From the NCBI GenBank assembly GCA_910822395.1, contig OU365335.1:868001-932000 (forward strand): a stretch of DNA of 64,000 nt, given 5' to 3'. Below the pieces are notes generated by a model, which had not been told where the DNA came from, did not search any database, and worked only from the letters and a program-made list of their open reading frames with translations. Shown here in pieces: positions 26,034 through 37,183 of the stretch. How positions within the stretch are numbered: position 1 is the first letter of the stretch; each line of letters starts with the position of its first letter. This DNA is from Pseudoclavibacter triregionum. Lineage in GTDB: Bacteria; Actinomycetota; Actinomycetes; Actinomycetales; Microbacteriaceae. The position numbers and the translations under genes were made by a program.

Positions 26034-26597
26034 GTGAAGTACCCGATCCGCATGCTCCTCGTCTGGCTCCGCGCCCTCCGCGCGCCGAGGCTCGGCATCG
26101 ACGACGTCTGCCGCACGCCGCTGCGCGTCGTCGTCGGCGACCTCGACTGGTACCGGCACGTGAACAACGGCACGTACCTCACGCTCGCCGACCTCGGCCG
26201 CCTCGACTGGATGCTCCGGACGGGCCTGTGGAAGGCGTTCGGACGCCGCGGCTGGTACCCGATCATCGCGAACTCGACGACGACCTACCGCCGCACGCTC
26301 CACCTCGGCCAGCAGCTCGTCATCGAGACGCGCCTGCTCGGCGCCGACGCGAAGGCGATCTACGTCGAGCACCGCTTCGTCGTCGACGGCGAGGTGCACG
26401 CGAAGACGATCCTGCGCTGCCGCTTCCTCTCGAAGGAGGGCACGCTCACGCCGGCGCAGATGCAGGCGCAGATCCCGGCCCTCGCGACGCTGCCGGACCG
26501 CGTGCCGGAGTGGGTGCTGCGCTGGGGCGAGGACACGAAGCTGCCGCCCTCGCGCGCGGAGTACCCGAGCGTCTGGGACGACGAGCCCGAGCGCTAG
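26034..26597 (+). CDS. acyl-CoA thioesterase-like hotdog protein
   Basis: 187 residues, 4HBT/hotdog fold. The family active-site loop appears as GDLDWYRHVNNGTYLTLAD (Asp, His, Asn-Asn). YRRTLHLGQQLVIETRL and YVEHRFVVDGEVHAKTILRCRF form the central strands. It resembles the Them6/YbgC-like branch. Predicted to hydrolyse fatty acyl-CoA or a related thioester in the cytosol. It is divergent from the MDR gene with an 92-bp shared promoter region and may be linked to acyl-CoA metabolism with it. Confidence 0.85.
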   Translation: MKYPIRMLLVWLRALRAPRLGIDDVCRTPLRVVVGDLDWYRHVNNGTYLTLADLGRLDWMLRTGLWKAFGRRGWYPIIANSTTTYRRTLHLGQQLVIETRLLGADAKAIYVEHRFVVDGEVHAKTILRCRFLSKEGTLTPAQMQAQIPALATLPDRVPEWVLRWGEDTKLPPSRAEYPSVWDDEPER

Positions 26598-26707
26598 GCG
26601 CCGCCGCGGGGCGGATGGCGGGAGCCGGATGCCCTGTCGAACAGCGCCCTCCGCGCCCGCGCTCGTCGCCGCGCCCGCGGCCTCCTCGTAATGTCCGCGG
26701 CCCCGCC

Positions 26708-26713
26708 TAGCGT
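26708..26713 (+). promoter_or_regulatory. -10 box TAGCGT
   Basis: TAGCGT lies 7 nt before the ATG at 26721 and rules out the upstream in-frame ATG at 26691. Confidence 0.55.
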
Positions 26714-26720
26714 CGACGCC

Positions 26721-27863
26721 ATGACCTCGCCCGCGATCGGCGCGCGCCCCCGGCGCCCGCACCTCCCGCAGCATCCGCCTGCGGGCCGCGCCCTCGCGCG
26801 CCCGCCGGCGCTCGGCCGGCAGCGCCTGCGGCCCGAGGCTCCAGCCGCGCCGGTCCCGCGCGCGGAGACCGTCTACCGCCCCGCCGATCCGCTCGACGTG
26901 CGGCTCACCCTCGGCCCGCTCCTGCGCGGCCGCTCCAACCCCGTCGCGAAGCTCGACCTCCGGACGGGCGACGTCTGGCTCACGACCCTGCGCGGCGGCG
27001 GGGCGACGCTCGTCGTCCGGCCGGTCCGCGACGGGGCGCGCGTCGTCGCCTGGGGTCCCGGCGCCGAGCAGGCGGTCGCCGACGCGCCGGAGCTCCTCGG
27101 CCGCGGCGACGCGCGCGAGGAGCTCGACCTCGCCGGGCATCCCTGGCTCGCGGAGACGGCGCGCCGACACCCGGGTCTTCGGCTGTGCCGCACGAACGCC
27201 GTCTTCGAGTCGCTCGCGCCCGCGATCCTCGAGCAGAAGATCACCGTCGTCGAGGCCCACCGGGCCTGGGCGGCGCTCCACCGCGCGTACGCGGACCCGC
27301 CGTTCGGGCCGGCCGAGCTCGTGCCGCCCGGGATGACCATGCCGCTGCGCCCCGAGCAGTGGCGGAGCATCCCCTCGTGGGCCTGGCACCGGGCCGGCGT
27401 CGACTCCTCCCGGACGACGACCCTCCTCCGCGCCGCCGAGGTCGCGAGCGCGCTCGAGCGGACGCTCGGCCTCGACGGGCTCGAGGCGCGCGCGAGGCCG
27501 GAGCCGGCTACGGGCGCGCGGACGGGCACCGCGGAGCGGGCCGCCGCCATCCCCGGCGCCCGCGGCGGCGAGGAGATCACGCGCCGCCTCCGCTCCCTCC
27601 GGGGCGTCGGAGTGTGGACCGCGGCCGAGACGACCCAGCGCTCCCACGGCGATCCGGATGCCCCGAGCTTCGGCGACTACCACCTCGCCGCCCACGTCGG
27701 ATGGGCCTTCACCGGCGGCCCCGTCGACGACGAGGGCATGCGCGAGCTCCTCGAGCCCTGGCGGGGGCAGCGGCAGCGGGTCGTCCGGCTGCTCATGCTC
27801 TCCGGCCGCGGCAAGCCCCGCCGCGGGCCGCGCATGACCATCCAGGACCACCGGGCGATCTAG
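26721..27863 (+). CDS. DNA-3-methyladenine glycosylase family protein (AlkA-like HhH-GPD)
   Basis: Predicted DNA base-excision glycosylase, 380 residues. A basic N-terminal stretch (about 1-50) precedes an AlkA-N-like region. The HhH-GPD core begins at ILEQKITVVEAHRAW. The helix-hairpin-helix is LRSLRGVGVWTAAETTQRS and the catalytic Asp is likely in FGDYHLAAHVGWAF. No 4Fe-4S cysteines follow, in line with AlkA rather than MutY/Nth. Expected to remove alkylated bases. Not operonic with the thioesterase gene, because it has its own box. Confidence 0.85.
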   Translation: MTSPAIGARPRRPHLPQHPPAGRALARPPALGRQRLRPEAPAAPVPRAETVYRPADPLDVRLTLGPLLRGRSNPVAKLDLRTGDVWLTTLRGGGATLVVRPVRDGARVVAWGPGAEQAVADAPELLGRGDAREELDLAGHPWLAETARRHPGLRLCRTNAVFESLAPAILEQKITVVEAHRAWAALHRAYADPPFGPAELVPPGMTMPLRPEQWRSIPSWAWHRAGVDSSRTTTLLRAAEVASALERTLGLDGLEARARPEPATGARTGTAERAAAIPGARGGEEITRRLRSLRGVGVWTAAETTQRSHGDPDAPSFGDYHLAAHVGWAFTGGPVDDEGMRELLEPWRGQRQRVVRLLMLSGRGKPRRGPRMTIQDHRAI

Positions 27864-29010: not shown

Positions 29011-29973
29011 CTACCGCTCGATCCCCAGCTCCCGCAGCGCGCCCGCGATCGTCTCCGCCGAGGCCTCGAGCCGCCGCCGCTCGAGCTTCGACATCGGCAC
29101 CTCGAGGATCTGCCGCACCCCGTGCCGGTCGAGCAGCGTCGGCACCGAGAGCGCGACGCCGCGGATGCCCCACTCGCCGTCGAGCACGCTCGACACCGGC
29201 ACGATCGCCCGCTCGTCGCGGAGCATCGCCTCGACGAGGCGCGCGCCCGAGAGGCCGATCGCGTAGTTCGTCGCGCCCTTGCCCGCGATGACGTGGTACG
29301 CCGCCTCGCGGACGTCCTTCGCGATGCGCTCGAGCTCCGCCTCGTTGAACGGCAGCTCGCCGTCGCGCTCCCACTCGAGGATCGGCACGGGCCCGATCGT
29401 GGCCTGCGACCAGAGCGCGAACTCCGAGTCGCCGTGCTCGCCGACGATCATCGCGTGCACCGAGGAGGGCGAGACGCCGCCCGCGAGCTTCGCGAGGATC
29501 CACCGCAGGCGCGAGGTGTCGAGCAGCGTGCCGCTCGAGAGGACGCGGCTGCTCGGCAGGCCGGAGATCCGCTGCGCGACGACGGTGAGCACGTCGCACG
29601 GGTTCGTGACGAGCACGTACACGGCGTCCGGCGCCGCCTCGACGAGCTTCGGCATGAGGTCCTCGAGGATGCGCACGTTCGTCGCCGCGAGGTCGAGGCG
29701 CGTCTGGCCGGGCTTCTGCTTCGCGCCGGCCGTGATGATGACGATGTCGGCGTCCGCGACGACCTCGAGGTCGTCGCCGCCGTGGATCTCGCTCGATCCG
29801 GTGAACTGGGTGCCGTGCGCGAGGTCGAGGATCTCGGCCTCGACCTTCGGGCGGTCGATGTCGTAGAGCGCGATCTCGCGGGCCGAGCCGCGGATGAGCG
29901 CGGCGTAGGCGAGCGAGGAGCCGACGCTCCCGGCGCCGATGATCGCGAGCTTGGTGTTCGAGGCGGTCGTCAC
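29011..29973 (-). CDS. ldh: L-lactate dehydrogenase
   Basis: NAD-dependent interconversion of pyruvate and L-lactate. 320 residues with GAGSVGSSLAYA (NAD motif), ITAGAKQKPGQTR (mobile loop; the Gln before the Lys marks lactate over malate), VTNPCDVLT, the SGTLLDTSRLR segment and the catalytic His in GEHGDSEFALW. GTG start at 29973 preceded by a TGGAGA Shine-Dalgarno, so this gene is leadered. The 3' end converges on the PfkB gene with 43 bp between stops. Confidence 0.93.
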   Translation of the reverse strand: MTTASNTKLAIIGAGSVGSSLAYAALIRGSAREIALYDIDRPKVEAEILDLAHGTQFTGSSEIHGGDDLEVVADADIVIITAGAKQKPGQTRLDLAATNVRILEDLMPKLVEAAPDAVYVLVTNPCDVLTVVAQRISGLPSSRVLSSGTLLDTSRLRWILAKLAGGVSPSSVHAMIVGEHGDSEFALWSQATIGPVPILEWERDGELPFNEAELERIAKDVREAAYHVIAGKGATNYAIGLSGARLVEAMLRDERAIVPVSSVLDGEWGIRGVALSVPTLLDRHGVRQILEVPMSKLERRRLEASAETIAGALRELGIER

Positions 29974-30114
29974 GTCGTCTCCAGACGCTGGGCGGTCGTC
30001 GGGCGGATGCGCGGGGCCGGGCATCCGTCGCGAGGCAGGGTAGGGGATCGGATGGTCGGGAAGCTGGCCTCGGCGTGTCCCCGGCGCGCGCGGCCCGCGC
30101 CGAGATCCCGTCGT

Positions 30115-30120
30115 TACCCT
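30115..30120 (+). promoter_or_regulatory. -10 box TACCCT
   Basis: TACCCT lies 6 nt before the ATG at 30127. Confidence 0.55.
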
Positions 30121-30126
30121 CGAAGC

Positions 30127-33100
30127 ATGGTCGACACCCCCCTGCCCGGAGACGCCAGCGCCGACCGCACCTCGGGGGCCGACCGCCCGCCGCACCGGGC
30201 GCGCATCGAGGGGCGCGACCTCGAGGAGGTCACCGCGCGCCGCGTCGAGCGCGCCGAGCTCGTGCGCTCCATCCGCGAGCGCCGCGGCGAGGCGGCGGCC
30301 GAGGACGCGGACGCCGCGGCCGACGCCGGCGAGCACGTCGAGCGCCTCGACCGCGAGGCCCTCGCGGCCGCCGCCGCGGGCGAGCGCCCCGTCGACCTCG
30401 CGCCGGACGACGAGCCGGAGGACCTCCCCACCCCGCAGACGCGCGGCGAGGACGGCGAGTACCTCGACGTCGACACCGACCCGACGGAGGTCGTGGAGCA
30501 CGCGGGCGAGCAGGCCGAGATCGAGCCGGCGGAGGCGGACCAGCCGGAGGCGCCGTCCGAGGCGCCGGAGCCCGACGCCGAAGCCCGGCACGACGGCGCC
30601 CGGCACGACGACCAGCACGCCGCGGACGCCCCCGCCCCCGCCATCCGCCCCCTCGCCGACGACCCCGAGCCGCCCACCGCCGCGCTCCCCGTCCTCGACG
30701 TCGCCCCGCAGGCCTCCGAGATGACGGACGCCGTGCCCGCCGCCCTCGCCCGCCTCGCCGCCTGGCGCGAGGCCGCCGACGAGGCCCAGCGCACCGCCGA
30801 GCAGGCGGTGTTCGAGGCCTCCTCCGCCCGCGCCCGCGACGCCGCCGATCCGAGCGGCGACCTCGATCGCGCCCTCCGCGAGCCCGACGGCGAGCGGTTC
30901 CTCCTCGACCTCCTCGACGACGTCGTCCGCCCCGACAACGCGATCGCCCGCGGCAACGGCCTCGGCGACCTCTCGCAGCGCCTCCCGCTGGGCCTGCGCC
31001 GCCGCACCCGCCGCGCCCTCCGCATCGGCGCCCTCGTCGGCCCGGGCCTTCCCTGGGTCGCCGTCCGCGCGATCGGCAGCACCACGCGCGGCGTCTTCGG
31101 CGACGAGGTCGTCCTCGACGTCGACCCCGAGGCGCGCTCGGCCGCCCTCGCGAGCGCGCGCGAGCACGGCGCCCTCATCCGCGCCCTCCCGCTCGGCCGC
31201 CGCATCCTCGGCGAGCAGGGCCTCCGCGAGCGCCTCGCCCGCTGCACCGTCCTCGCCGAGGAGCCGCACGTCGACGAGCTCGACCTCGACCTCGCCTCCC
31301 TCGAGCCCGCCCTCGACCTCTGGGACATGGACGGCGTCGTCGAGCGCCTCGCCGCCCGCGTCGCGCCGATCGTGCACCTCGGCGCCTCGCTCGCCCAGCC
31401 GCGCCGCGTCATGCTCCGCGTCTCGCGCTCCGAGCACCTCGAGCTCGGCGTCGCCGTGCTCCAGCGCCTCATCGCGCTGCCCGAGCTGCGCGACGCCCAG
31501 CTCGGCCTCACGATCCCCGCCGCCTTCCCGGAGAGCATCGGCCTCGCCCGCCGCCTCGCCGGCCTCGCCCACCTTCGGCGGGAGGACCTCGGCGCCCCCA
31601 TCATCCTCGCCGTCACCCGCGAGGCCTCCATCGGCCGCGAGCGGATCGCCGCCGCCGAGCACGGCTGGGCGCTCGCGAGCTTCGCGAGCGAGGAGGAGGT
31701 CGACGCGAGCGTCGCGCGCCTCCTCGACCTCCTCCTCGACCCCGAGCACGCGAACGCCGTGCGGGTCGAGCTCGACTCCCCGCACTGGCGCGACCAGGCG
31801 CTCGCCCTCTCGCTCGCCGAGGCCCGGCGCCTCCTCGCCTCGCTGCGGATCGTCCTGCCCTGGGGCGAGCGCGCCGAGGCGCTCGGCCGCCTCGCCGACT
31901 CGGGCTGCCAGCTCGTGCTCCGCGCCCCGCTCGCGCCCGACGCGACCCTGCGCGCCGCCGTGCCGTACCTCGTGGGGCGCGTGCGGGCGAAGGCCGCGGC
32001 GCTCGCGGGGCTCGAGCGGACGGCCATCCTGCCCCGCGGAGCGCGCGCCGCGAGCCGCGACGCCGACGGCGGCCACCCGGACGACATCCGCCTCCTCGAC
32101 GCGGTCGGCTCCCGCGGCGCCCTCGCGACCGGCCCGCTCCGCTCGCAGGAGCGCGTCGATGCCGACGACGCCGCGACGGTCACCGCCGGCATCGAGCTCG
32201 AGCTCTTCCCCGCCGGGATCTTCGCCGACGACGACCCGGGCTACGAGCGCGTCCGCGAGAGCGGGGGCCGGATGGCCGCCGACCGCGCCGCCGCGCCCGG
32301 CTCCGCGCTCCCCGAGCTCGAGGGCAACCCGGCCGAGTCGGGCCCGCTGCCCGGCCTCACGCAGGTCGTGCTGGGCCTGCGCCGCGGACGCATCCTCCGC
32401 AACACCTTCCGGCACGCGCCGGCCACCGACCCGTCGATCGCGGCGAACCGCGAGTGGGGCCTGCGCATCCAGCGCCGCGTCGCCCGCAGCGAGCTCGGCA
32501 TCGCCGAGGCCGAGCACCACCGCGTCCGCAGCGCCGAGCAGATCGAGGACCTCCTCGCCTCCGCGAAGGCCGCGAGCGGGCCGTGGGGCGAGCGCCCCGG
32601 CTGGGAGCGCGCCGCCGTGCTCGAGAAGGTCGCGAAGGCGCTCGAGGCGAACCGCGCCCGCCTCATCGAGACGGTCATGAGCGAGTCCGGGACGCCCTTC
32701 AACGAGGTCGACCACGAGCTCAGCCGCGTCATCGACTTCGCGAGCCACTCCGCCCACCTCGCCCGCCAGCTCGACCGGATGCAGGGGGCCGCGTTCTCGC
32801 CCGTCGGCATCTCGCTCGTCGTCCCCTCCGGCATCGCGAACCTCTCGGCCTCGGCCTCGTCGACCTTCGGGGCGCTCGCGGCGGGCTCGGCGGTCATCCT
32901 GCAGTCCGAGCCCGGCGTCATGCGCGCCCACGCCGTCTTCGCGCGCGTGCTCTGGGACGCCGAGCTGCCGCAGGATCTCGTGCAGCTCGCCGTCTGCGAC
33001 GACGACCGCTTCAGCGACGAGGCGCTCTCGCGCGAGCTCGTCACCGACCGCCGCGTCGAGCGCGTGCTCCTCACGGGCGAGTGGGAGGCGGCGCGCGACA

Positions 33101-34515
33101 TGCTCCGATGGCGCAAGGACCTCCCGCTCATCGGCGGCGCGAGCGGGAAGAACGCGATGATCGTCGCGCCCTCGGCCGACCTCGAGGACGCCGCGTGGGA
33201 CATCGTCCGCAGCGCCTTCGTCGGCACCGGGCAGACGCCCGCGCACCTCTCGACGGTCATCCTCGTCGGCTCGCTCGGGCGCTCGGAGCGCTTCCTCGAG
33301 CTGCTCGCCGACGCCGCAGCCTCGATCCGCGTCGGCTACCCGAGCGACCCCTCGGCGATCGTCGGGCCGCTCGCGCGTCCGGCGACCGGGCAGCTCCGCT
33401 ACGCGCTCGGGGAGCTTGGCGAGGGCGAGTCGTGGCTCGTCGAGCCGCGCCAGCTCGACGACACGGGGCGGCTGTGGACGCCGGGCATCCGCCTCGGCGT
33501 GCAACCCGGCTCCTTCGTCCACACGACGAGCTTCGCGGCGCCGGTCATCGGCGTCATGACAGCGCTCACCCTCGACGAGGCGATCCGGATGCAGAACGCG
33601 ACCGCGTACGGCCTCTCCGCGGGCCTCCACTCGCGCGACCGCACCGAGATCGCCGAGTGGATCCGACGCGTCGAGGCGGGCAACCTCTACGTGAACCGGG
33701 ACCTGCTCGGCAACCAGGTGCAGCGCATGCCCTTCGGCGGCTGGAAGCGCTCGAACGTCGGCACCCGCTACAAGTCGGGCGGACCGAACCAGCTCATCTC
33801 GCTCGGCTCGTGGCGCCCCGACCACGGCGAGCAGTCGCAGACCCTTCACCTGCGCGGGCTCGAGCCGCGCGCCCGCGAGCTCATCGAGGCGGCGCAGACG
33901 CACCTCGCCTACGAGGAGTTCGAGGTCGTGCGCCGCAGCGCGCTCTCGGACCAGATCGCCTGGAACGAGGAGTTCGGCGAGGCGGCCGACGTGACGAGCC
34001 TGCCGTTCGAGCGGAACCTGCTCCGCTACGTGCCGGTGCCGGCGACGATCCGTGTGCAGGAGGGGGCCGAGCTCGCGGAGCTCGTGCGCCTGCTCGTCGC
34101 CTCGCAGATCGCCCGCTCGCGCCGCGTCGACCTCACGACCGGCATCGAGGTGCCCGCCCCGCTGCGGACGCTCGTCGAGGCCTGGGGCATCACGGTCCGC
34201 GACGAGACGGACGCCGCGTTCCTCGCGCGCCTCGAGGCGGGCGGCGGCGACTCCCTCCGTATCCGCCTCGTCGGCGGCGGCCGCGGCTCGGTCTGTCAGG
34301 CGCTCGGCGCCGACGCGGACGCCTCGGTCTGGTCCGACCCGGTCACGCCCGCCGGCCGCGTCGAGCTCCTCCCGTTCCTCCGCGAGCAGTCGATCTCGCT
34401 CCGCGCCCACCGCTTCGGCGAGCCCGATGACCTCGTCGCCGAGCTCTTCCCCCACGAGAAGCTCGTCGACCCCTCCGCCCCCATCTCCGACCCCGGCAAC
34501 CCCGTTCACGGATAG
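30127..34515 (+). CDS. PutA-like protein, probably catalytically inactive in both domains
   Basis: 1462 residues with the layout of bifunctional proline dehydrogenase / P5C dehydrogenase. There is an acidic, disordered N-terminal region (about 1-200), a PRODH-like barrel (about 240-640), an ALDH-like domain (about 745-1230) and a 230-residue C-terminal extension. Key residues differ from active PutA. The oxyanion Asn of PPWNFP is replaced (VPSGIAN, Ile903). The general-base Glu of LAETSGKN is Gly (LIGGASGKN, Gly1004). The catalytic Cys of GQKCSA is Pro (GQTPAH, Pro1038). The KGA and ASHN motifs of the PRODH barrel are also not recognisable (residues 492-503 read IILAVTREASIG). The frame is intact, with normal codon use, so it is not a decayed pseudogene. 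It may be a pseudoenzyme with a binding or scaffolding role; proline catabolism should not be assumed. Confidence 0.8.
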   Translation: MVDTPLPGDASADRTSGADRPPHRARIEGRDLEEVTARRVERAELVRSIRERRGEAAAEDADAAADAGEHVERLDREALAAAAAGERPVDLAPDDEPEDLPTPQTRGEDGEYLDVDTDPTEVVEHAGEQAEIEPAEADQPEAPSEAPEPDAEARHDGARHDDQHAADAPAPAIRPLADDPEPPTAALPVLDVAPQASEMTDAVPAALARLAAWREAADEAQRTAEQAVFEASSARARDAADPSGDLDRALREPDGERFLLDLLDDVVRPDNAIARGNGLGDLSQRLPLGLRRRTRRALRIGALVGPGLPWVAVRAIGSTTRGVFGDEVVLDVDPEARSAALASAREHGALIRALPLGRRILGEQGLRERLARCTVLAEEPHVDELDLDLASLEPALDLWDMDGVVERLAARVAPIVHLGASLAQPRRVMLRVSRSEHLELGVAVLQRLIALPELRDAQLGLTIPAAFPESIGLARRLAGLAHLRREDLGAPIILAVTREASIGRERIAAAEHGWALASFASEEEVDASVARLLDLLLDPEHANAVRVELDSPHWRDQALALSLAEARRLLASLRIVLPWGERAEALGRLADSGCQLVLRAPLAPDATLRAAVPYLVGRVRAKAAALAGLERTAILPRGARAASRDADGGHPDDIRLLDAVGSRGALATGPLRSQERVDADDAATVTAGIELELFPAGIFADDDPGYERVRESGGRMAADRAAAPGSALPELEGNPAESGPLPGLTQVVLGLRRGRILRNTFRHAPATDPSIAANREWGLRIQRRVARSELGIAEAEHHRVRSAEQIEDLLASAKAASGPWGERPGWERAAVLEKVAKALEANRARLIETVMSESGTPFNEVDHELSRVIDFASHSAHLARQLDRMQGAAFSPVGISLVVPSGIANLSASASSTFGALAAGSAVILQSEPGVMRAHAVFARVLWDAELPQDLVQLAVCDDDRFSDEALSRELVTDRRVERVLLTGEWEAARDMLRWRKDLPLIGGASGKNAMIVAPSADLEDAAWDIVRSAFVGTGQTPAHLSTVILVGSLGRSERFLELLADAAASIRVGYPSDPSAIVGPLARPATGQLRYALGELGEGESWLVEPRQLDDTGRLWTPGIRLGVQPGSFVHTTSFAAPVIGVMTALTLDEAIRMQNATAYGLSAGLHSRDRTEIAEWIRRVEAGNLYVNRDLLGNQVQRMPFGGWKRSNVGTRYKSGGPNQLISLGSWRPDHGEQSQTLHLRGLEPRARELIEAAQTHLAYEEFEVVRRSALSDQIAWNEEFGEAADVTSLPFERNLLRYVPVPATIRVQEGAELAELVRLLVASQIARSRRVDLTTGIEVPAPLRTLVEAWGITVRDETDAAFLARLEAGGGDSLRIRLVGGGRGSVCQALGADADASVWSDPVTPAGRVELLPFLREQSISLRAHRFGEPDDLVAELFPHEKLVDPSAPISDPGNPVHG

Positions 34516-35571: not shown

Positions 35572-35630
35572 GCCCGATCCGGGTGAAGACGGCGGGCGGT
35601 TGTCCACAGGCCGAGCCGGGCGGCCCCGAG

Positions 35631-35693
35631 AAATCCACCCAGACGGGGTGGAGGTCGGATATTTCCCTGCGCGCCGCGTGGGTGGGAATCTGG
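35631..35693. repeat. hairpin repeat flanking the DUF559 gene, 5' side
   Basis: GGTGGGAATCTGG at one end, AAATCCACCCAGAC at the other, and GGATATTTCC in the centre. It is an inverted copy of 34543-34610, sharing CCAGATTCCCACC, GGAAATA and GTCTGGGTGGA in that order. Confidence 0.7.
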
Positions 35694-35700
35694 AACGGCG

Positions 35701-35750
35701 CGAGGGCGGGGCCTGCGGCCCGGCGCGAGGGCGGGGCCTGCGGCCCGGCG
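35701..35750. repeat. two tandem 25-bp units upstream of the FAD oxidase gene
   Basis: CGAGGGCGGGGCCTGCGGCC is the start of each 25-bp unit, at 35701 and 35726. The array abuts the TAGCGT box at 35758. Confidence 0.7.
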
Positions 35751-35757
35751 CGGGGGC

Positions 35758-35763
35758 TAGCGT
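35758..35763 (+). promoter_or_regulatory. -10 box TAGCGT
   Basis: TAGCGT lies 7 nt before the ATG at 35771. Confidence 0.55.
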
Positions 35764-35770
35764 TGACGGC

Positions 35771-37183
35771 ATGAACGACGACGACGTCCTCGGCAGGCTG
35801 CAGGCGGAGCTCGGCGCGCGGGTCGATGTCGATCCCGAGGCGCTCGAGGCGTGCCGCACGGACCGCGCCGGCACGCTCGCCAAGGGCCGCCCGATCGCGA
35901 TCGTCCGCGCCGAGACGGTCGAGGACGTGCAGGCGACGATGCGCATCGCCACCGCGACCCGCACGCCCGTCGTCACGCGCGGCGCCGGCTCCGGCCTCGC
36001 CGGCGGCGCCATCGCGGGCGAGGGCGAGATCGTCCTCTCGACGGCGTGCATGCGGAAGGTCCTCGAGATCTCGGCCGACAACCAGCTCTGCGTCGTCGAG
36101 CCCGGCATCCTCAACGGCGAGCTCAACGCGATCCTCGCCGAGCACGGCCTCTGGTGGCCGCCGGACCCTGCCTCCAAGGACATCTCCTCCGTCGGCGGCA
36201 ACATCGCCATGAACGCGGGCGGCCTGCTCTGCGCGAAGTACGGCGTCACTCGCGAGGCCGTCCTCGCCCTCAAGATCGTGCTCGCGGACGGCGAGCTCCT
36301 CGAGGTCGGCCACCGCACGGTGAAGGGCGTGACTGGGCTCGACCTCTGCGCGCTCATGATCGGCTCGGAGGGCACCCTCGGCGTCATCGTCGAGGCGACG
36401 CTCAAGGTGCGCCCCGCGATCACGGGCACGGTCCCGACGATCGGCTGCTACTTCCCGACGATCGCCGCGGCCGCCGGCGCCGCCGCGGAGGTCACCCGCG
36501 CGGGCCTGCGCCCCGCGATCATGGAGCTCCTCGACGACAAGATGCTCCGCGCGACCTCCGAGTTCACGGGCGTCGACCTCGCGAGCCGCGGCGACGCGTA
36601 CCTCCTCGTGCAGACCGACGGCGCGGACGCGCTGGGCGAGGCCGAGCGGATCGCCGAGCTCGCGCGCGCCGCGGGCGCCGAGGTCGAGGTGACGACCGAC
36701 CCCGAGGCCGCCGCGAGCCTCGTCGACGTGCGCCGCAGGGGATTCCCCGCCCTCGAGGCGATGGGCGGCGCGATGCTCGTCGAGGACATCGCCGTCCCGC
36801 GCGACCGCATGGTCGAGATGTTCGAGATCATCGACGACATCTCGCGCCGCTACGAGGTGTTCATCCCGACCCCGGCCCACGCGGGCGACGGCAACCTCCA
36901 CCCGACCTTCGTCTTCGAGGGCTCGGCGGACGACGTCCCCGAGCGCATCTGGGACGCCGCGGCCGAGATGTTCACCGCCGCCCTCCGCCTCGGGGGCACC
37001 CTCTCCGGCGAGCACGGCATCGGCGTGCTCAAGCGCCGCTGGCTCGGCGACGAGCTGGGGGAGCGGCAGTACGTCATCCAGCGCGAGATCAAGCGCGTCT
37101 TCGACCCGCTCGGCATCCTCAACCCGGGCAAGGTGTTCGCGGACGGCCCGGACCCGGAGCCCGAGTCGGCCCCGCTGCCCTAA
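35771..37183 (+). CDS. FAD-binding oxidase, GlcD / D-lactate dehydrogenase type
   Basis: Flavoprotein of 470 residues oxidising a 2-hydroxyacid such as glycolate or D-lactate. The PCMH-type FAD-binding part carries VTRGAGSGLAGGAIA (about 67-81), PDPASKDISSVGG and NAGGLLCAKYG. A FAD-oxidase C-terminal domain has HAGDGNLHP and the terminal GEHGIGVLKR. No Fe-S partner (GlcF) or GlcE gene is adjacent, so it is probably a stand-alone subunit or a cytochrome-linked D-lactate dehydrogenase. The exact substrate cannot be set from sequence. Confidence 0.88.
   Translation: MNDDDVLGRLQAELGARVDVDPEALEACRTDRAGTLAKGRPIAIVRAETVEDVQATMRIATATRTPVVTRGAGSGLAGGAIAGEGEIVLSTACMRKVLEISADNQLCVVEPGILNGELNAILAEHGLWWPPDPASKDISSVGGNIAMNAGGLLCAKYGVTREAVLALKIVLADGELLEVGHRTVKGVTGLDLCALMIGSEGTLGVIVEATLKVRPAITGTVPTIGCYFPTIAAAAGAAAEVTRAGLRPAIMELLDDKMLRATSEFTGVDLASRGDAYLLVQTDGADALGEAERIAELARAAGAEVEVTTDPEAAASLVDVRRRGFPALEAMGGAMLVEDIAVPRDRMVEMFEIIDDISRRYEVFIPTPAHAGDGNLHPTFVFEGSADDVPERIWDAAAEMFTAALRLGGTLSGEHGIGVLKRRWLGDELGERQYVIQREIKRVFDPLGILNPGKVFADGPDPEPESAPLP

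Follow-up and report, generated by a model that had tools for sequence, protein, structure and literature searches.

The gene at 30127..34515 on the forward strand of the window, the whole 64,000-nucleotide stretch of DNA analyzed here, encodes, as its alignments showed, a long-retained predicted pseudoenzyme derived from type B PutA (PutA2). The earlier note had proposed a selected, non-enzymatic function. That the gene is under selection for something other than PutA chemistry we consider highly probable, given that the losses recur in all 19 members carrying the dead form, that dN/dS is very low, and that the genome holds an active-looking PutA. As for the mechanism, we tentatively suggest a non-catalytic binding or scaffold protein. 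The explanation as a whole, pseudoenzyme and mechanism together, has a probability of roughly one half in our estimate.

Frame and Domain Layout

The open reading frame comprises 1462 codons to its stop, with GC contents of 0.80/0.52/0.98 at the three codon positions, and the intact 4.4-kb frame reported earlier was thereby confirmed. The ATG start at 30127 fits, since the frame of [Zimmermannella] alba has a Met at the corresponding place. The host genome is a single contig of 2.36 Mb. Pfam matched Aldedh at residues 801–1214 (E 2.5e-65) and Pro_dh at residues 426–616, the latter with 25.2 bits and thus just below the 27-bit cut-off; the six-frame genome search gave 28.9 bits for Pro_dh in the same protein. 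These two were the sole Pfam matches at E ≤ 1, and the ribbon-helix-helix domain of the type C, trifunctional PutAs was not matched. The NCBIfam PutA/P5CDH equivalogs stayed below their curated cut-offs (PRK11904.1, 156.5 vs 747 bits; TIGR01238.1, 128.8 vs 485.2 bits). The closest solved relative was PutA 5ux5, with a match spanning the PRODH and ALDH halves. By homology, the protein is a member of the PutA family, having PRODH-like, ALDH-like, and C-terminal domains within one chain. The C-terminal extension had been called unusual, but it aligned with that of the genome's own active PutA and agrees with the C-terminal domain of type B PutA in PMC5293562. A new domain at this place was ruled out on these grounds. 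The coordinates are collected in Table 1.

Table 1. Features of the pseudo-PutA gene and its neighbors (window coordinates).
Feature	Position	Strand	Basis or remark
Thioesterase gene (4HBT_2), marker of the PutA2 place	26034..26597	+	Neighbor comparison
Gene without Pfam match, marker of the PutA2 place	26691..27863	+	Neighbor comparison
Lactate/malate dehydrogenase family, divergent neighbor	29014..29973	-	Pfam
Pseudo-PutA gene, 1462 aa	30127..34515	+	Open frame; unbroken long frames in 18 further genomes
Conserved N-terminal motif, residues 26–53, RIEGRDLEEVTARRVERAELVRSIRERR	30202..30285	+	Present in 18/18 members with readable N-terminus
Acidic tail, poorly conserved, residues 54–245	30286..30861	+	60 D/E vs 24 K/R in the 230 residues preceding PRODH
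PRODH-like half without catalytic residues, residues 246–622	30862..31992	+	Alignments; 5ux5 sequence match, E 1e-31
Linker, residues 623–766, two conserved blocks, QERVDADDAATVTAGIELELFP and NPAESGPLPGLTQVVLGLRRGRILRNTFR	31993..32424	+	Alignment of 11 linkers
ALDH-like half without Asn/Lys/Glu/Cys (I903, Q, G1004, P1038)	32425..33810	+	Pfam, alignments, dN/dS
Type B C-terminal domain (e.g., RVELLPFLREQ)	33811..34464	+	Alignment with the genome's own active PutA
GlcD-like FAD-linked oxidase, downstream neighbor	35600..37183	+	Near the dead copy in 13/19 genomes

An antisense open frame of 1832 codons (window 29011-34509, minus strand) spans the entire pseudo-PutA gene and shares its reading frame with the lactate dehydrogenase gene. 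It is probably a by-product of the high GC content.

Loss of the Catalytic Residues

The protein was aligned with the canonical PutA of the same genome. Between the two, sequence identity is 25% for the PRODH halves, 46% for the ALDH halves, and 38% for the C-terminal domains. The labels K329, D370, Y540, R555, R556, E559, and E399 follow what we take to be the numbering of E. coli PutA and ALDH2. In the ALDH half, the alignment upheld every loss that had been read from the single sequence: the Asn is replaced by Ile903, the Lys by Gln (LQS), the Glu by Gly1004, and the Cys by Pro1038. The E399 equivalent is Ser, and the Phe equivalent is Ala. In the PRODH half, the Lys is replaced by R498, His-Asn by Pro-His at 552–553, the Tyr by R599, and a Glu by A621, while the double Arg reads GR. 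Thus, the PRODH motifs described as missing were indeed lost for the Lys, the His-Asn pair, and the Tyr, but the double Arg was only half lost.

The same positions were inspected in all 19 dead-form members. The ALDH Cys, Glu, and Asn were retained in none of them, and neither were the PRODH Lys (replaced by Arg in 18 and by His in 1), the Tyr, or the Asn of His-Asn. The ALDH Lys persisted in 15 of 19 members, the window protein not being among them. The claim of loss at every catalytic position held for most positions; the D370-equivalent Asp, however, was retained in 18/19 members and the R556-equivalent Arg in 12/19, the window protein included.

A shift of the catalytic residues to other places was ruled out by the alignment with 16 active PutAs together with a Cys scan. 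The window protein has Cys residues at 373, 594, 957, and 1390 only, and no Cys column is fixed across the dead set, the most Cys-rich one having Cys in 14 of 19 relatives. Neither properly placed Cys, Glu, and Asn elsewhere in the alignment nor substitutions unique to the strain, both of which the earlier note had named as counter-evidence, were found. According to PMC10211241, pseudoenzymes are a known kind of protein, defined by homology without the conserved catalytic residues. Here, the homology is clear and the conserved catalytic residues are missing.

Distribution and Selection

The dead form was present in all ten genomes sampled of the window's genus. When 398 family genomes were searched with the linker alignment, strong matches, at E values of 1e-42 or better, were confined to this genus (10 genomes) and a second one (9 genomes); another 21 genomes matched part of the linker weakly. 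The substitutions recurred in homologues, as had been anticipated, in 19 of 19 cases, and all 19 genes are long unbroken frames. This recurrence across two genera ruled out a strain-specific change, and the unbroken frames, together with the dN/dS values, ruled out a pseudogene or a sequencing artefact. Named relatives are Z. alba (62%, best segment) and Pseudoclavibacter terrae (54%), the latter belonging to Microbacteriaceae. The dead PRODH barrels differ among members down to 34% identity. In plasmids, no record had 80% of the window protein covered in one place. Among the open-access literature matches listed, no title or beginning of an abstract described a dead PutA paralogue.

Selection was estimated by Nei–Gojobori counts in five close species (ten pairs), for the dead copy and, alongside it, for each species' active PutA. 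In the ALDH half, dN/dS was 0.01–0.02 for the dead copy, as compared with 0.04–0.06 for the active one in the same pairs. For the PRODH half, the values were 0.03–0.11 in the dead and 0.03–0.06 in the active copy. In these five species, the dead ALDH half is therefore held tighter than the live one, and the dead PRODH half looser. The C-terminal part of the dead copy yielded 0.04–0.14 and the N-terminal part 0.24–0.35, a range that also takes in codons lying before the real start, as the frames were cut from stop to stop. The low dN/dS expected by the earlier note was found in the five close species. When the window protein was set against that of Z. alba, the PRODH half reached 0.85, a value that shows no constraint on it, and the ALDH half 0.27. 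Constraint is weaker in the window's branch. For a different pair (own genome and G041), the active PutA gave 0.32 for PRODH and 0.33 for ALDH. With third positions this rich in GC, the Nei–Gojobori method in our judgement underestimates dS. The protein is conserved between species and under purifying selection, which is weaker in the window's branch, and ranks as a pseudoenzyme with a selected function.

A slowly dying gene under relaxed constraint would account for the value of 0.85 and for the PutA2-type copies found at several stages of loss in other genera. We regard this reading as hardly credible in view of the unbroken long frames in 19/19 genomes, the low ALDH dN/dS in the five relatives, and the new residues that became fixed.

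Newly Fixed Residues

The columns of the 19 dead sequences were compared with those of 16 active PutAs. A column was called absent if at most 1/19 dead sequences had the active residue. Of 185 ALDH columns fixed in the active set, 83 persisted in 90% or more of the dead sequences, and 19 were absent, including the surroundings of the Asn, Glu, and Cys and the G1192–I1197 loop. This loop corresponds, as we read it, to the aldehyde anchor loop of PMC5786444. The PRODH half had 112 active-fixed columns, with 13 kept and 41 absent, and the C-terminal domain kept 22 of 32 in at least 90% of the 19 sequences.

At six positions, a single new residue occurred in 19/19 members (N352R, D431R, Q464P, G548E, Y599R, and D609R), and at three more in 18/19 (Y384E, K498R, and G1192D). 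One active row had a gap at 352, and one had Cys at 384. A looser rule gave 18 columns with a replacement residue. Judged from these columns, the change is replacement by a new residue set and not mere erosion. The six replacements are fixed throughout despite barrels as low as 34% in identity, and we therefore counted them in favor of the preferred explanation. The arginines among them suggest an anionic ligand or internal salt bridges.

The charged replacements, fixed in 18–19 of 19 members, are also what would be expected of a new active site, and the barrel or the ALDH half might have gained a different activity through R431, R498, E384, E548, and R599. Such a neo-enzyme seems unlikely to us, because the usual ALDH places hold no chemistry residue, none of the Cys columns is fixed, and the former PRODH pocket motifs are lost. 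Since the PRODH pocket columns and the G1192–I1197 loop are replaced throughout, a sensor of proline or P5C, as put forward earlier, was not supported. NAD sensing is unlikely for the window protein, with its Lys-to-Gln change and its Ser at the E399 equivalent, though 15/19 members keep the Lys.

Second PutA and Origin

The sole other PRODH in the genome is PutA1 (C1:381104-384145), a frame of 1212 residues with every motif intact. It is an active-looking second putA of the kind that the earlier note had suggested looking for. Forty family genomes were then sorted by their PutA content: 13 had two PutAs, 16 the PutA2 type only, 5 the PutA1 type only, 5 were without a PutA-level match, and G009 was kept apart. 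For G013 and G027, the sorting relied only on the score. Copies outside the PutA1 group of the tree were taken as PutA2 type, an assignment backed by neighbor genes in 8/16 PutA2-only and 9/13 two-copy genomes; among the latter, it was made by the tree only in G014, G019, G026, and G031. The tree was a quick one, with L085 on a long branch; duplicates (L017, L023, L024, L028, L043, and L045) and the broken frame L081 of G009 were left out of the trees.

In the two-PutA genomes, the PutA1 copy carried all motifs in 13/13 cases. In eight genomes (G000, G003, G007, G014, G017, G019, G020, and G035; in G003, the Glu only), one or more of N, K, E, C, K329, R555, and R556 were missing from the PutA2-type copy. 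It kept the key residues in the other five (G004, G011, G024, G026, and G031), with other changes in G024 and G031. The PutA2-only genomes showed loss in 0/16, all copies being whole. The association of a second copy with loss had a Fisher p value of 0.0003 with kinship ignored, and the fewest changes on the quick tree numbered 5. This link suggests that a spare copy permits the loss of the chemistry while a non-catalytic job retains the protein.

The thioesterase gene or its neighbor (26034-27863) lies kilobases upstream of PutA in 8/16 PutA2-only genomes and adjoins 9/13 PutA2-type copies in two-copy genomes, the window included, as compared with 0/8 PutA1-type loci (own, G041, G043, G044, G020, G016, G030, and G031). 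The shared neighbors make the window gene probably the positional counterpart of PutA2. Together with the tree, they indicate that the pseudo-PutA is likely the counterpart of the all-motif PutA2 in other Microbacteriaceae. The genes next to the dead copy vary among genomes; the lactate dehydrogenase gene occupies the same place in 6/10 genomes of the genus, the contig of G047 stopping short. The GlcD-like oxidase had no match at the other PutA loci inspected, most of which were covered to ~3.5 kb downstream.

Second PutA copies in six other genera have lost differing key residues: L085 (G014), L087 (G007), L086 (G035), L033 (G017), L076 (G019), and L079 (G003). The loss is confined to the ALDH half in L033 and to the ALDH Glu in L079. 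The PutA gene of G009 (L081, L114) is split between frames, which may be an assembly error, as this genome is 86% complete.

A strong PRODH match (PF01619) was found elsewhere in 17/19 genomes with the dead copy. Along with the retention of much of the ALDH half, this would suit a regulatory subunit that forms mixed oligomers with the active PutA1 and tunes or places it. Against it, G040 (~99% complete) has no PRODH besides the dead copy by PF01619, and G217 (~99% complete) has no PRODH match at all, though the dead gene is present. Since the dead copy persists in these two genomes beside no other PRODH match, its role cannot consist solely in partnering an active PutA. We consider the regulatory subunit quite unlikely, and the earlier proposal that the protein partners a true PutA or serves as its decoy did not hold as the only function. 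A short separate PRODH, a frame of 377 residues, lies at G328:C49:13787-14539 beside PutA1 and the dead copy.

Proposed Role and Known Systems

We return to the non-catalytic binding or scaffold protein. With PutA1 performing the chemistry, PutA2 would have been free to turn into such a protein. The ALDH half and the C-terminal domain may serve as a stable platform. The barrel, rich in fixed arginines, might bind an anionic ligand or be locked by salt bridges in place of FAD and proline, and the RRVERADLVR motif on its acidic tether could dock a partner. A broader statement of this idea is possible but somewhat doubtful. It would describe a new protein family in Microbacteriaceae, arising from a two-domain enzyme beside an active second copy, with key residues lost on at least five tree branches. 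One two-genus lineage would now be stable and non-catalytic, its barrel being a fixed arginine-rich pocket for an anionic ligand and its N-terminal motif docking a partner.

ALDH16A1 and omega-crystallin are ALDH-family pseudoenzymes, having the ALDH fold without the catalytic cysteine. The window family differs from them in being bacterial, a two-domain PutA, and dead in both halves, usually beside an active paralogue. With type B PutA, represented by the Rhodobacter capsulatus enzyme (PMC5293562) and 5ux5, it shares the order of PRODH, ALDH, and C-terminal domain and a match over both halves. It departs from this type in lacking key residues in both halves and in having an extra N-terminal motif, an acidic tail, one new linker block, and new fixed PRODH residues. 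The E. coli-type PutA (PMC5293562) and the Ralstonia PutA (PMC9132996) are described as regulatory proteins that retain proline oxidation and bind DNA. The non-catalytic role proposed for the window protein has its parallel in them, but the window protein lacks both a matched ribbon-helix-helix domain and the catalytic residues.

In this family, the residues for both activities disappeared from a metabolic enzyme of several domains and 1462 residues, whose ALDH half was then held tighter than that of the active sister in the five close species. The series from all-motif PutA2 through copies with one dead half to the fully dead form makes the order and the drivers of the conversion testable.

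N-Terminal Motif, Linker, and Threonine Motifs

The motif around RRVERADLVR was found in 18/18 readable members, including the window protein, and was shorter in G020 and L161; G047, cut by the contig end, was left out of the count. Its columns are gaps in all 16 aligned active PutAs. A search of four genomes gave no clear second match, the next best having an E value of 0.02. An amphipathic helix for the motif was not supported, with a moment of 0.10 vs 0.20 for shuffles. The unusual acidity noted earlier for the N-terminus was confirmed: 60 Asp/Glu face 24 Lys/Arg in the 230 residues directly before PRODH.

The linker of the dead copies has ~140–240 residues vs ~65 in PutA1. Its length was dropped as a special trait because several active PutA2-type linkers are equally long. 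The columns of the first linker block (DDAATVTASI, LELFP) are gaps in the 16 active PutAs, whereas for the second (LTEVVLGLRRGRxLRNTFR), active PutA2-type linkers offer a weaker counterpart.

Threonine motifs of the form T-x-x-V/I/L occur in the tail or linker of 7/10 members of the genus (1–3 copies each) and 9/9 of the second genus, as compared with 1/16 active PutAs; the pattern was chosen after the sequences had been seen. The GarA site is an ETTS motif (PMC12321487), and the genome has 6 FHA matches. By analogy with GarA/OdhI signalling in glutamate metabolism (PMC2784874 and PMC12321487), whose acid-Thr motif is similar to the one in the tails of many relatives, Ser/Thr kinases could phosphorylate these threonines and FHA proteins could bind them, giving a phospho-switch scaffold. 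We hold this to be very doubtful. The GarA-like motif has 0 matches in the window protein and is absent from Z. alba too, although 16/19 members have it, and the enrichment reached p < 0.05 in only 4/19 members vs shuffles of their own tail and linker. Unlike GarA/OdhI, the family has no FHA domain, and its phosphorylation is putative. The motif was not kept as a general mechanism, since the window protein is without it.

The N-termini of L059–L065 carry ETVxVDxS-like motifs, often in tandem, in the tails of many genus members, and the linkers of L154–L161 in the second genus carry a single TT(V/I)LG motif. Both resemble the GarA ETTS phosphorylation site. In the window's own genome, the FHA protein L133 (C1:1312982) contains DGHTVRTESIAELRRR, which is similar to the tail motif of the relatives. 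A second, larger FHA protein is encoded ~18 kb from L133.
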